DNA of 64,000 nt, taken from positions 310,001 through 374,000 of the forward strand of contig NZ_CAKAKO010000001.1 in the NCBI RefSeq assembly GCF_916700565.1, in the 5' to 3' direction. This document shows, in pieces, positions 58,555-64,000 of the stretch. Numbering within the stretch: the stretch's first letter is position 1; each line of letters begins with the position of its first letter. Origin of the DNA: Xenophilus sp. Marseille-Q4582 (GTDB lineage: Bacteria > Pseudomonadota > Gammaproteobacteria > Burkholderiales > Burkholderiaceae_C). Made by a program: the position numbers and the translations under genes. Under the pieces are notes generated by a model, which saw only the letters and a program-made list of their open reading frames with translations, ran no database searches and was not told the DNA's origin.

Positions 58555-58642
58555 GGAGACTTGGGTGAGTGGTTTAAACCAGCAGTCTTGAAAACTGCCG
58601 ACGGGCAACCGTCCGTGAGTTCGAATCTCACAGTCTCCGCCA
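58555..58642 (+). tRNA. tRNA-Ser (anticodon UGA)
   Basis: An 88-base class II tRNA with encoded CCA. The acceptor GGAGACT pairs with AGTCTCC; the anticodon stem CAGT/ACTG holds loop CTTGAAA (UGA); a long variable arm (CGACGGGCAACCGTCC) follows; the T arm GTGAG-TTCGAAT-CTCAC is perfect. TAGAAT at 58540-58545 could be its -10. Gene order and sequence character change right after its 3' end. Confidence 0.96.
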
Positions 58643-59604: not shown

Positions 59605-60099
59605 CAGAACAGTCCTTTCAGCATGTGGCGTTGATAGCCAGGGTCGGCTATTGAACCGAAGACGGATGACGTCTCAGCTTTGCGACATCCCTGAGTCGAC
59701 CGCCATCCGTCCTATGACCACCGCAACGTCCAGGATGGCTTTGAGTCAAATGAAGACTGTGAGCGGCCGGTCGCGCATCCAGCGTCGAAAGACTGTTTCC
59801 AGCGAGAGCAGACACTAGGGCCACCGACCAAGCCCGACGCGTTTCAGGAACGGCCGAGCAGCGGGAGTGTGCCCGAAGCGGACGTAGCACTTCTCCTATG
59901 CCGGTCGTTCGTTCGCGAATGCAGTTACATGACCGGATCAAGCCATACCGCAGCGCATCGAGAACGGCCTCACCCAGGCCGATGTGTACGGCGTTTCGGT
60001 GGGATCGGCCAGAACGTCAAGTCTTTCACCGCTGCGCGCCGCAACTCGATCGGCTCAGTGACGCAACTGAGCACTGACGCGGCTACGCCGGCAGTTCCG
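59605..60099. other. Non-coding or eroded segment
   Basis: About 495 bases without a supported gene. Short open frames exist on both strands, but none shows a known motif or a ribosome-binding site. The composition is less GC-rich than the core genome. It may hold the promoter of the AhpD-like gene at its left end. Confidence 0.5.
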
Positions 60100-60303
60100 C
60101 GGGACATCGTGCAGCGCTTTCTCTATCGCCGGGCCCGCAAGGTTGAACCATTGCGGCGTCAAATGAATGTGCAGCATGGCCTCGGGCGGGAAGGGCGGGC
60201 GGCCACGCTTGCCTTCGGGCAGGTACGGAAAGACCAGCGCCACCAGATCGGACCACGGCACCCTGCAATTCATCTTTTCGAGGAACTCGCGTGTTGATTC
60301 ATG
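60100..60303 (-). pseudogene. IS5-family transposase, N-terminal fragment
   Basis: The minus strand encodes REFLEKMNCRVPWSDLVALV and, later, PPEAMLHIHLTPQWFNLAGP and AIEKALHDVP, which match the N-terminal DUF772-type region of IS5 transposases. The DDE catalytic domain is missing, and the frame runs into unrelated sequence at about 60100. No inverted repeats can be recognised. This is a dead insertion-sequence remnant. Confidence 0.8.
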
Positions 60304-60367
60304 CCGCCGATCCTCTCTGCACTTCAGCCACACACCAAGCACCGGGGGCACACTGTGCAGATCTTCT

Positions 60368-61042
60368 TTAGAGGAACACGCTGCTCCACACTACCTTGCC
60401 CAACAGGTGAATTTCCTTTGTAGGCACGGTGAACTCACGGTGGCTGGGGTTGTCCGCCAAGACGCGCACAAGGGAGCCTACCTCTAACTGCAGTCTTCGC
60501 AGGAGCGTGACGTCACTGTCGCGCAACAAGTAAATGCCGTCGTCTTCGACACTGGTCTGCGACAGGTCGATGAGGACCACCGCCCCAGCGCGCAACGTGG
60601 GCGCCATGCTGTCGCCGCGCACCTCCATGGCAACCAGATTGCTGATATCCAACCCGTTCTTGCTCAACCAGCGGAAGCAAAAGGCTTGGGCGGAGAAGTC
60701 TGTGCCCTGCACTGGCGATACGACATCAGGCACAGCCCCCATGGGTAGCAATGGGAGTTTGCGCAAGGTTCCCCAACCCTGGCCCTCCTGCGCCTGCATG
60801 CTGCCGACTCCGGATGCCAACCACTCCACGGATGTCTGCGTGGCCTGGGCCAAGGCCAGCAGAACTTTCCGGGATGGATCACCGCCGCTCAGATAGCGGC
60901 TCAGTCCGCTCTGGGAGATCCCCGCCCTGCGCGCCAGAGCACTGGCATTGCCTGCCAGATCGACGAGTTGCCGAAGCCGGCCGATGAACGCCGGGTCCAC
61001 GGATTCATGTAAAGGCTCGGTCTCTGGCGTCAAAGTCGTCAT
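60368..61042 (-). CDS. LexA/CI-like XRE repressor with S24 domain
   Basis: A 224-residue phage-type repressor. The N-terminal helix-turn-helix is ALARRAGISQSGLSRYLSGG (about 35-54). The C-terminal S24 domain has MEVRGDSMAPTLRAG with Ser145 in the normal nucleophile position. The catalytic Lys expected about 37 residues later falls in LLRRLQLEV, where Arg182 seems to replace it, and no Ala-Gly or Cys-Gly cleavage site is seen in the linker. It may therefore be a non-cleavable S24 regulator. The start at 61042 fits; the region between it and the divergent permease gene holds repeated motifs. Confidence 0.9.
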   Translation of the reverse strand: MTTLTPETEPLHESVDPAFIGRLRQLVDLAGNASALARRAGISQSGLSRYLSGGDPSRKVLLALAQATQTSVEWLASGVGSMQAQEGQGWGTLRKLPLLPMGAVPDVVSPVQGTDFSAQAFCFRWLSKNGLDISNLVAMEVRGDSMAPTLRAGAVVLIDLSQTSVEDDGIYLLRDSDVTLLRRLQLEVGSLVRVLADNPSHREFTVPTKEIHLLGKVVWSSVFL

Positions 61043-61108
61043 GGCGATCCCCGGTGACAAGTGTGTGCCGATTTTAGAAAGAGTGCGCCGCTCCGCACAT
61101 TCGATATC

Positions 61109-61175: not shown

Positions 61176-61976
61176 ATGTTTCGCAATAAAGATATTTTAT
61201 CTGCGATTAGTCAACAGCAGATGCGCCCACTGAAGAGGCTGGCAATTCCGGCCCTTCTGATCTTGCTCTGGCAATCGCTGACATCGCTCGGAGTGATTCC
61301 AGCGGCCGTGCTTGCGTCCCCTTTGCGTTCGCTGGAAGCCGGCTGGGCGCTGGCCAGCAGTGGGGCACTGGGTGACGCTCTGTGGCTATCACTGCGCCGC
61401 TCTTTCAGCGGCCTGGCCCTGGGCGCCGCCGCCGGCCTGGCTGCAGGCGTGGTGGCGGGATACTGGAGCTGGGGCGAGAACCTGATCGACGCGAACATGC
61501 AAATGCTGCGCGCCGTGCCCTTCGTGGCACTGGCGCCCGTGTTCATTGCCTGGTTCGGCATCGGCGAGGGGGTCAAGGTGGCAATCATTGCGTTTGCCAC
61601 CCTGTTTCCGGTCTATGTCGGCACTTATGAGGGCATCCGCGGGCTGGACCGTGGACTGCTGGAAGTCGCCCGCGTCACCGGCATGCGAACCTGGGACACG
61701 GTGCGCGAAATCATCGTGCCTGGCGCCTTGGCCTCCATCCTGCAAGGCTTTCGTTACGCGCTGACGCTGTCGGTCATTGCCCTCGTGATCGCCGAGCAAA
61801 TCAATGTGACTGGCGGCCTGGGCGCTCTGGCCTTCGATGCCCGCAAGTTCATGCAGACCGACGTGCTGGCCTTGTGCCTGTTGCTGTATGCCCTGCTGGG
61901 CGTGGCTGCGAATGCGCTGGCCCGCACCCTGGAAAGGCGGCTGCTGGCGTGGCGCCGCGAGGTGCACGCTGTATGA
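61176..61976 (+). CDS. SsuC-type ABC transporter permease, first
   Basis: A 266-residue inner-membrane permease of the nitrate/sulfonate/taurine type. It has six or so hydrophobic helices, RLAIPALLILLWQSLTSLGV near the start and the cytoplasmic loop EVARVTGMRTWDTVREIIVP that docks the ATPase. The ATG at 61176 lies only 6 bases after TATAGT and lacks a ribosome-binding site; the Met at 61221 (MRPLKRLAIP) would also give a complete permease. Its stop overlaps the next permease gene. Confidence 0.88.
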   Translation: MFRNKDILSAISQQQMRPLKRLAIPALLILLWQSLTSLGVIPAAVLASPLRSLEAGWALASSGALGDALWLSLRRSFSGLALGAAAGLAAGVVAGYWSWGENLIDANMQMLRAVPFVALAPVFIAWFGIGEGVKVAIIAFATLFPVYVGTYEGIRGLDRGLLEVARVTGMRTWDTVREIIVPGALASILQGFRYALTLSVIALVIAEQINVTGGLGALAFDARKFMQTDVLALCLLLYALLGVAANALARTLERRLLAWRREVHAV

Positions 61977-62803
61977 CGGCCGGAAGCTCTATCTCATCGC
62001 CGTCTCCCCGCGCCACGCGCCCGCCCCTGACGACGTGGCGGCAGGCCTTGTGGCGCCGCCGCAGGTTCAGCGGTCCGTTGCTGGTGCTGCTGGCCTGGTG
62101 GCTGGTGGGCGCCGCCCAATGGTTGCCGGCCTCCTTGCTGCCTCCCCTGGGGTCTGTGCTCCAGGCGGCGACGGAGTCCATCGGCAGCGGTGCGCTGCCC
62201 GCAGCGGCGGCGATCTCGGGCGGCCGGTTGCTGGCCGGCTTCGTGTTGGGCAGTGGGCTGGGCATCGTGCTCGGCCTCGTCAGCGGCCTGTCGCGGCATG
62301 GGGAGGACCTGCTGGACAGCACGCTGCAGGGCCTGCGTGCCATCCCTTTCCTGGCGCTGGCGCCCTTCTTCTCGCTGTGGTTCAGCGTGGATGAGGTGGC
62401 CAAGGTCGCCCTCGTGGCCTTTGGCGCCACCTTTCCGGCCTACCTGGGCACCGTGGCCGGCATCCGCGCCACGGACGTACGGCTGGTGGAGGCGGCCCGC
62501 GTGTGCGGCCTGAGCGCCCGCGAGCGGGTGCGCGAAGTCATCCTGCCGGGCGCATTCCCGGAGCTCCTGACGGGGCTGCGCATCGGCTTCAGTTGGGCGC
62601 TCGCCGCCCTGGTCTCGGCCGAGCTGACCAGTTCGTCGACAGGCATCGGTACGCTCATTGCCGAAGCCCGCGAATACGTGCAGACGGAACTGCTGTTCGT
62701 TTGTGTTCTCACCTATGCCCTGCTGGGCCTGGCGGCTGACACCGGATTGCGCCTCGTCGCACGGTGGCAGATGCCGTGGCGGCGTGTGTTCGGCGGCCAA
62801 TGA
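61973..62803 (+). CDS. SsuC-type ABC transporter permease, second
   Basis: A 276-residue permease homologous to the one before it, so the transporter probably uses a heterodimeric channel rather than the usual SsuC homodimer. It has LLVLLAWWLVGAAQWLPASL at the N-terminus, EAARVCGLSARERVREVILP as the ATPase-docking loop and a C-terminal helix before VFGGQ. ATGA overlaps couple it both to the previous permease and to the ATPase gene downstream. Confidence 0.93.
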   Translation: MTAGSSISSPSPRATRPPLTTWRQALWRRRRFSGPLLVLLAWWLVGAAQWLPASLLPPLGSVLQAATESIGSGALPAAAAISGGRLLAGFVLGSGLGIVLGLVSGLSRHGEDLLDSTLQGLRAIPFLALAPFFSLWFSVDEVAKVALVAFGATFPAYLGTVAGIRATDVRLVEAARVCGLSARERVREVILPGAFPELLTGLRIGFSWALAALVSAELTSSSTGIGTLIAEAREYVQTELLFVCVLTYALLGLAADTGLRLVARWQMPWRRVFGGQ

Positions 62804-63558
62804 CCATGACTCCTGTTTCTGAACCCGCGGGCGCCAACACGTCCGGCCTCCCGTCGACCGTGGTCCTGCGCGGCCTGCATCGCCAGTTCGGTAGTCGCAA
62901 GGTGCTGCGTGGGGTGGATCTCTCGCTGCGCTGCGGCGAATTCGTCGCGCTGCTGGGCCCCAGCGGCTGCGGAAAGTCCACACTGCTGCGGCAACTGGCG
63001 GCGCTGGATCAGCCAGATGCCGGCTCCGTGCAGGTGCCGGCGCGCGTCGGCGTGGTCTTCCAGGATGCCCGCCTGCTGCCCTGGCGCCGCGTATGGCAGA
63101 ACGTGGTGATGGGCGTGGGCCGGGACCAGCACCGCGCCCATGCAGCGCTCGCCGAAGTGGGTCTGCAGGCCCGCGCCGAGGACTGGCCCGGCACGCTGTC
63201 CGGGGGCGAGGCGCAGCGGGTTGCGCTGGCCCGGGCGCTGGTCCGTGAGCCCGAACTGCTGCTGCTCGACGAGCCCTTCGCAGCGCTCGATGCCCTGACC
63301 CGGCTGCGCATGCATGCGCTGGTGCTGGCCCTGTGGCGGCAGCACCAGCCCACTGTGCTGATGGTGACGCATGACGTTGACGAAGCGTTGCTGCTGGCCG
63401 ATCGCGTGCTGGTCATGCGCGAGGGCCACATCGTGCGGGACCAGCCACTGGACGCAGCCCGGCCGCGCGATCGCACCACCGCGGAATTCGAACAACTGAG
63501 GCGCCAGCTGCTGGTTGAACTCGGTCTTGAGGCGTCTTCCGTGCACGCGCCGGCATGA
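62800..63558 (+). CDS. SsuB-type ABC transporter ATP-binding protein
   Basis: A 252-residue ATPase of the nitrate/sulfonate/taurine class. Walker A is GPSGCGKSTLL, Q-loop VFQDARLLPWRRVWQN (SsuB/TauB-like), signature LSGGEAQRVALARAL, Walker B LLLLDEPFAALD and H-loop VTHDVDEAL. The start at 62800 overlaps the permease stop (ATGA); the Met two codons later is possible. The following gene starts 45 bases after the stop. Confidence 0.94.
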   Translation: MTMTPVSEPAGANTSGLPSTVVLRGLHRQFGSRKVLRGVDLSLRCGEFVALLGPSGCGKSTLLRQLAALDQPDAGSVQVPARVGVVFQDARLLPWRRVWQNVVMGVGRDQHRAHAALAEVGLQARAEDWPGTLSGGEAQRVALARALVREPELLLLDEPFAALDALTRLRMHALVLALWRQHQPTVLMVTHDVDEALLLADRVLVMREGHIVRDQPLDAARPRDRTTAEFEQLRRQLLVELGLEASSVHAPA

Positions 63559-63603: not shown

Positions 63604-64000
63604 ATGAACACCGTTGCCAACTCGGCCGACACCCAGGCGCCCCTACAGGTCTGGTACTCCCGCTGCCCCGTGCCCACCCCGTTTGCCGTCGCACTCAAGC
63701 TGGGGTGGCTGCAGCACGCCCTGGAAGCGCAAGACGCGCCCGGCCGCTACGAATGGTGCTCGCTGGGCGACTCCCGCGACGAGCGCATCCGGGCGGCCCA
63801 CTACACGCACGCCCATGTCGATGTGTTCCGCCACGGCGGCAACATCCCGCCCATCTGGGCACGCGCCCACGGCGCGGACACGCGCCTGATCGGCATCTCC
63901 TGGGTCACCATGCGCCAGCAGGTGCAGGTGCTGGCGGACAGCGGCATTCGCAGTCCCGCGGACCTCAAGGGGAAGCGGCTGCTGATTCAGCGCAACGACA
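63604..64000 (+). CDS. DszB-like sulfinate desulfinase or ABC binding-protein homologue, 3' end beyond the window
   Basis: The first 132 residues of a protein in the periplasmic-binding-protein fold. No signal peptide is present (MNTVANSADTQAPLQVWYSR), so it is expected in the cytoplasm. Aligned by eye with Rhodococcus DszB (catalytic Cys27, His60, Arg70), this protein has YSRCPVP (Cys21) for YSNCPVP, HYTHAHVDVFR (His66, Arg76) for HFTYDQPAYTR, and GGNIPP for GGEIPP. The His-to-Arg spacing of 10 is the same. DszB converts 2-(2'-hydroxyphenyl)benzene sulfinate to hydroxybiphenyl and sulfite. A desulfinase role here is inferred; a binding-protein role would need an export signal. Confidence 0.8.
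   Translation, partial: MNTVANSADTQAPLQVWYSRCPVPTPFAVALKLGWLQHALEAQDAPGRYEWCSLGDSRDERIRAAHYTHAHVDVFRHGGNIPPIWARAHGADTRLIGISWVTMRQQVQVLADSGIRSPADLKGKRLLIQRND

Follow-up and report, generated by a model that had tools for sequence, protein, structure and literature searches.

A DszB-like protein in an SsuABC-type transporter operon of Xenophilus sp. Marseille-Q4582 is a candidate cytosolic sulfinate desulfinase

The protein P0001, encoded within an operon for an SsuABC-like importer, is probably (about three chances in four) a DszB-type desulfinase that acts on a sulfinate in the cytosol for sulfur scavenging and carries a pocket unlike that of DszB. Its gene starts with the ATG at 63604 of the window, which is the whole 64,000-nt stretch of DNA analysed (G000:C1:310001-374000 of a 5.54 Mb genome). 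The first 132 of its 368 codons, assigned to a DszB-like desulfinase gene by the open frame and by homology, occupy 63604..64000 on the forward strand; the frame is still open at the window end, and the rest lies outside. The host genome completes the protein to 368 aa at L005:3605-4711, ending at about 64710 on the window scale (position x of locus L005 corresponds to window position 59999+x).

Using HMMER, DszB (2de2) was found to be the top solved-structure match of P0001, covering residues 16-349 (E 3.9e-15, 58.9 bits), and 93 of the 312 positions aligned with the 2de2 letters (29.8%) were identical. Among the chains listed, 3e4r, named a nitrate transport protein, and the sulfonate-binding protein 2x26 matched only residues 77-132 (E 3.5e-5) and 78-134 (E 1.5e-4), respectively, and 3uif gave a partial match (E 0.24). 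P0001 is thus homologous to DszB (PDB 2de2, 2de3 and 2de4) over nearly its full length. The sequence-only reading had matched C21, H66 and R76 (codons 63664-63666, 63799-63801 and 63829-63831, forward strand) to DszB C27, H60 and R70, and the 2de2 alignment bore this out. S19 and G79 align with S25 and G73, the remaining two residues of the published active-site model, and all five modelled residues are kept, the Ser-His dyad included. The DFT study of DszB describes C27 as the proton giver, the Cys-to-Ser mutant being dead, and the H60-S25 dyad as stabilising the transition state, the loss in H60Q being only about 17-fold; it places R70, whose mutants are insoluble, in a conserved RXGG motif, has G73 form a hydrogen bond, and also treats a loop at 187-204 (PMC6100217). 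The mechanism is debated in the reports cited here, with C27 either donating a proton (PMC6100217) or reacting with the sulfinate (PMC12168087). Around these residues the pocket has changed: DszB Asn26 is Arg20 in P0001, residues 152 and 155 have no counterpart, and most positions read in 182-206 differ. Because of the missing 152 and 155 and the divergent 182-206 region, the substrate of P0001 cannot be transferred from that of DszB.

To our knowledge, DszB is the only one of the relatives compared by sequence whose activity is known. The triad residues are kept in nearly all compared rows of the broad DszB-like family, most members of which show 26-42% identity. An alignment of 37 rows, including P0001 and L033, a DszB homologue with 65.5% identity to 2de2, contained the Cys in 36, the His in 36 and the Arg in all 37, with a complete triad in 35; R76, G78 and G79 were invariant, and an Arg stood at the DszB Asn26 position in 32. 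These rows are the sequences fetched and kept, not every match; of the 101 plasmid records with a match five were used, and four more were added through a DszB query. Dropped from the count were L019, a copy interrupted by an in-frame stop, whose C21 and H66 columns hold T and R; the second L031 copy, split over two frames, with both its pieces; L024, a contig-end fragment; L008, with the C-terminal 74 residues only; L068 and L070, extra copies from genomes already represented, L070 being interrupted by an in-frame stop as well; and duplicates of genes already included. No triad residue is lost in the closest homologue, 72% identical to P0001, and the two rows that lost one (L026, Cys to Ser; L030_6069, His to Asp) each adjoin another family copy with the full triad. 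Judged from these alignments, the conservation of the triad is more than chance would give.

Family profiles and phylogeny likewise placed P0001 with DszB. Two family profiles were made from which P0001 and its Variovorax orthologue had been left out; on these, P0001 scored 361 and 358 bits, the best of 20 other binding-protein rows scored 63 and 58 bits, and the DszB homologue, which was excluded from the second profile, scored 190 bits on it. The family and DszB separated from the binding proteins with a support of 99/98, and the same split was recovered with an SH-aLRT of 98 after seven long-branch rows were removed. Approximately unbiased (AU) tests rejected the grouping of P0001 and its orthologue with the operon's exported SsuA clade (p-AU 2.5e-15) and with the P0003 clade (p-AU 2.1e-4). 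The AU test did not reject a tree in which the pair sits across the family branch, on the side of the binding proteins (p-AU 0.56), so that P0001 and the Variovorax orthologue may form the deepest branch of the whole group. Homology of P0001 to DszB is therefore stronger than its similarity to binding proteins: it does not nest in either of the two binding-protein clades tested, and its profile score is far from those of binding proteins, though the AU test also accommodates a basal place next to them.

The absence of a signal peptide from the N-terminus, as read from the sequence, was also upheld. An in-frame stop lies 15 codons upstream of the ATG, and no ATG, GTG or TTG occurs among these 15 codons, so no missed start with a signal is present there. 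In 38 rows matching the motif pattern (seven further listed lines did not), the family Cys stands 8-29 residues past the nearest possible start. In 15 of these 38 rows at most 30 open codons precede the Cys, leaving no room for a cleaved signal; in the other 23 the frame is long enough to allow a longer start. P0001 is accordingly predicted to be cytosolic. That it is an ordinary exported SsuA/TauA-type sulfonate-binding protein whose signal peptide was misplaced or lost is very improbable. The top NCBIfam match is SsuA_fam (96.8 bits), the relatives carry the annotation ABC transporter substrate-binding protein, and the AU test leaves the place beside binding proteins; yet 96.8 bits is far under the 163.5-bit cut-off (though the exported P0004, with 152.6 bits, is also just under it), no start codon lies upstream, the AU test rejects a place in the operon's SsuA clade, and the operon already encodes the exported P0004. 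An exported binding protein with a missed start was ruled out by the lack of an upstream start codon and the rejected SsuA-clade grouping.

The operon runs in the order permease, permease, ATPase, P0001, P0002, P0003, P0004; of its six joints, three are 4-nt overlaps and the others are spaced by 45, 53 and 34 nt. Upstream of P0001 on the forward strand lie an SsuC-like first ABC permease (61176..61976; PRK11365, 213.5 bits, below the cut-off of 347), a second ABC permease of the BPD_transp_1 type (61973..62803), and an SsuB-like ATPase (62800..63558; PRK11247, 245.5 bits, below the cut-off of 395) that overlaps the preceding gene by 4 nt. Directly after P0001, outside the window, follows P0002, an SsuD-like LLM monooxygenase of 381 aa that is nearest to alkanesulfonate monooxygenases (338.6 bits against a cut-off of 510). 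P0003, a signal-less SsuA-like protein of 304 aa (L005:5907-6821, about window 65906-66820 and thus outside it), and P0004, an exported SsuA-like binding protein of 324 aa (L005:6856-7830), score 86.4 and 152.6 bits on SsuA_fam, so that P0001, P0003 and P0004 are all beneath its cut-off. P0001 had been read as sitting in the binding-protein slot of the transporter operon. This was corrected, since P0004, with an N-terminus that looks signal-like by eye, lies three genes downstream at L005:6856-7830, and the importer is not without a binding protein.

A similar set of genes is present in two organisms. Variovorax boronicumulans has most of the operon including P0003, its P0001-P0004 and ATPase being 60-76% identical and its permeases lower, and a plasmid of Streptomyces sp. 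SAT1 encodes P0001-P0004 relatives (33-43% identical) in a different gene order with a single permease gene. A divergent regulator of 230 aa with an HTH and an S24-peptidase-like part (CI/LexA-like; 60368..61060, reverse strand) precedes the operon, as one does in Variovorax (L006, 57.7% identical). No RNA element reached the gathering score in L005 1-9000, and a sigma-70 scan of L005 950-1300 gave no promoter and two terminator-like matches. Upstream of the operon, window 60055-60351 (reverse strand) holds a truncated transposase N-terminus (DUF772), and farther upstream is a tRNA-Ser gene at window 58555-58642 (forward strand). No P0001 match occurred in the other 14 genus genomes searched, which points to a mobile or lost segment. 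At the other end of the operon, the 3′ end of the P0004 gene is overlain by a transposable element (L005:7805-8658) that encodes a DDE transposase and has inverted ends of 22 nt with 91% complementarity; the last P0004 codons are therefore element DNA.

The site of P0002 differs from that of plain sulfonate monooxygenases. Of the residues in the MsuD sulfonate site, P0002 retains the Trp and the Arg in the loop; it has Thr at the position of the sulfonate-binding Arg225 and RIGS in place of the RGGA loop, and both changes are common to the Variovorax orthologue. The Arg225 equivalent is present in the relatives from Streptomyces and Thioclava, whose loop reads RPGP, and the SsuD of the host genome has both the Arg and RGGA. 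These changes would fit a shift from plain sulfonates, for instance to sulfones, which would yield a sulfinate for P0001. A second ssu locus in the genome contains an SsuE gene, and this SsuE could be the source of reduced flavin. No DszC-like gene was found in L005, and of 20 PF08028 places in the genome the best 10 reach no more than 19-32% identity with DszC/ACAD references; with no DszC-like gene nearby, the imported compound would presumably already be oxidised.

These features are consistent with a route in which the SsuABC-like importer would bring an anionic organosulfur compound into the cell, the SsuD-like flavin monooxygenase P0002 would most likely cut a C-S bond, and P0001, an enzyme built on the periplasmic binding protein fold, would strip the SO2 group from the resulting or a directly imported sulfinate. 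By analogy with DszB, from which the steps and the desulfinase activity itself are extrapolated, the sulfinate would be held by Arg76, His66 and Gly79, Cys21 would pass its proton to the carbon bearing the sulfinate, His66 with Ser19 would carry the charge, and SO2 would leave to give sulfite for cysteine synthesis. The substrate carbon is likely aromatic or vinylic. An alkyl sulfinate, which the sequence-only reading had proposed alongside an aryl one, is less likely, because the mechanism favoured for DszB in the DFT work is an electrophilic aromatic substitution in which the Cys proton attacks (PMC6100217).

A binding-protein descendant need not be an enzyme, and P0001 might instead be a cytosolic, non-enzymatic protein that senses an imported sulfur compound or hands it over, for example to an SsuD-like enzyme. 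Its membership of the NMT1/SsuA superfamily would suit such a role, as would P0003, a second signal-less and triad-free SsuA-like protein in the same operon. This is unlikely all the same, as a binder has no evident reason to keep the Cys, His, Arg and Gly-Gly among the top conserved columns of the 37 rows, and P0003, which may be just such a binder, is without those residues. The clade of P0003 comprises four proteins (its own and those in L006, L036 and L091) whose start lies only a few residues from the first strand and which have the motif G-V/I-H; the other SsuA-like rows matched (12/12) have G-Y/F/H-Q-K, mostly behind a stretch that looks signal-like by eye. In Thioclava, the partners of the P0003-type protein are an SsuD-like LLM and a TRAP transporter.

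Turning from P0003 to the distribution of the proposed desulfinase, homologues of P0001 at E 1e-10 turned up in 16 of 399 taxonomic-family genomes, 5 of 369 from the class and 1 of 15 from the genus, with the host genome counted each time, and at E 1e-3 there were matches in 101 plasmid records. LLM-type monooxygenase genes lay near the DszB-like gene in 19 of 31 loci (1 of 20 arbitrary regions), ACAD (DszC-type) genes in 12 of 31 (2 of 20), and either of the two in 22 of 31 (2 of 20). The 31 loci include eight hand-picked plasmid loci and several from shared genomes; the comparison of 22/31 with 2/20 is tilted in favour of the test set, since these loci supplied a large part of the reference proteins, the proteins of a locus not being counted for that locus, and one of the two control matches (L122) resembles an organosulfur cluster. 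Neither gene type was present in 9 of the 31 loci, and seven frames from two of these nine contained no sulfur-linked gene (GGDEF, CrtC/lipocalin, PALP or no family). Rhizobium acidisoli has its LLM, DszB-like and ACAD genes in the dszABC order. The Sphingobium sp. TomTYG65 plasmid (L030) bears three DszB-like genes near ssu, LLM and sulfatase genes, one with His to Asp and one annotated soxB. Two further arrangements were observed: an SsuB-like ATPase frame of Agrobacterium larrymoorei (L008:7326-8222), the last 74 residues of which resemble the family C-terminus at 39% identity, represents a possible ATPase/DszB-like fusion, and a second DszB-like copy of Sinorhizobium meliloti ABS7 pSymA (L031:10267-11309) runs across two reading frames. 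For viral homologues, one scan with an 11-row alignment gave seven stretches fitting a pattern, none of which was confirmed.

The nine loci without monooxygenase neighbours, the unconserved pocket positions and the Arg at the Asn26 position in 32 of 37 rows, a hint that the substrate is more polar or anionic, could also be accommodated by a DszB-fold enzyme using the same residues for another reaction on a different C-S compound, perhaps with Cys21 as nucleophile. Retention of all five modelled DszB residues, Ser-His dyad included, and the SsuD-type enzyme encoded next to P0001 make this quite improbable.

P0001 is not a true DszB of the 4S operon (dszABC), which was ruled out by operon content and pocket positions: DszB is encoded with DszA and DszC, whereas P0001, about 30% identical to it, stands with SsuABC and an SsuD-like enzyme, no DszC-like gene occurs in L005, and the LLM protein is SsuD-like. 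By gene content, it is a DszB-like gene beside SsuABC- and SsuD-type genes, as described in Gordonia and Rhodococcus. The bdsABC genes of Gordonia terrae C-6, for a desulfinase, a DszC-like and an SsuD-like protein, lie beside SsuB-, SsuC- and binding-protein genes; GTC6_01585-01620, with adjacent locus numbers, were all reported up on benzothiophene versus sulfate, and extracts of E. coli with bdsABC, given NADH, FMN and DszD, converted benzothiophene to o-hydroxystyrene (PMC3868597). The Gordonia locus, likened here by gene content and not by sequence, includes the DszC-like gene that the P0001 operon lacks. On the Rhodococcus qingshengii IGTS8 chromosome, SsuA (peg4799), SsuB (4801), 'SsuA/DszB' (4802), SsuD (4804) and SsuA (4806) are listed as up in dibenzothiophene culture (PMC8557817); the likeness is drawn from these table entries, with peg4800, 4803 and 4805 outside them. 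Both loci are thus described as induced when a thiophene replaces sulfate (PMC3868597, PMC8557817). Since the Gordonia and IGTS8 loci have comparable genes, an operon of this kind is already in print, and of the proposal of a new aryl or alkyl desulfinase, the DszB type appears to hold, as suggested by residues, family, predicted location and neighbours, and novelty of kind falls away. Set against those published accounts, the P0001 operon appears to differ in having no DszC, in its altered SsuD-like site and in its second protein without a signal, and the breadth of the Cys-His-Arg family under a transporter name appears to go beyond them. The SsuABCD alkanesulfonate system shares the importer type, an exported SsuA-like protein and an SsuD-like enzyme; the P0001 operon differs in its two extra signal-less binding-protein-like proteins and in the Thr for Arg225 and RIGS for RGGA of its SsuD-like enzyme. 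In a sulfolane degrader, a DszA homologue is reported to end an ssu operon, DszB not having been found (PMC6395730). Our literature search, judged by title and abstract start of the entries listed, found no description of the wider Cys-His-Arg DszB-like family.

As a tentative extension, which we consider rather doubtful as a whole, the operon might encode two enzymes derived from binding proteins: P0001 would desulfinate a small, polar sulfinate of the aryl or vinyl kind, and P0003 would be, with Gly-Val/Ile-His at about the position of the DszB Cys, a second cytosolic catalyst or a chaperone coupled to the SsuD-like enzyme, which, having lost its sulfonate-binding Arg, would now open sulfones. 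Together they would constitute a module that desulfurizes a soluble organosulfur compound without DszC, and the wider family, found in rhizobia and Burkholderiales and annotated as transporter proteins, would be a large unrecognised set of desulfinases.

DszB has been studied chiefly for fuel desulfurization. The wide family delineated here keeps the DszB active site and not its pocket, often lies beside monooxygenase and importer genes, and offers many testable enzymes with differing pockets, as well as grounds to re-annotate 'substrate-binding proteins' that have no signal peptide. If the desulfinase assignment is true, enzymatic desulfination would be a common route by which soil and plant-associated bacteria gain sulfur.
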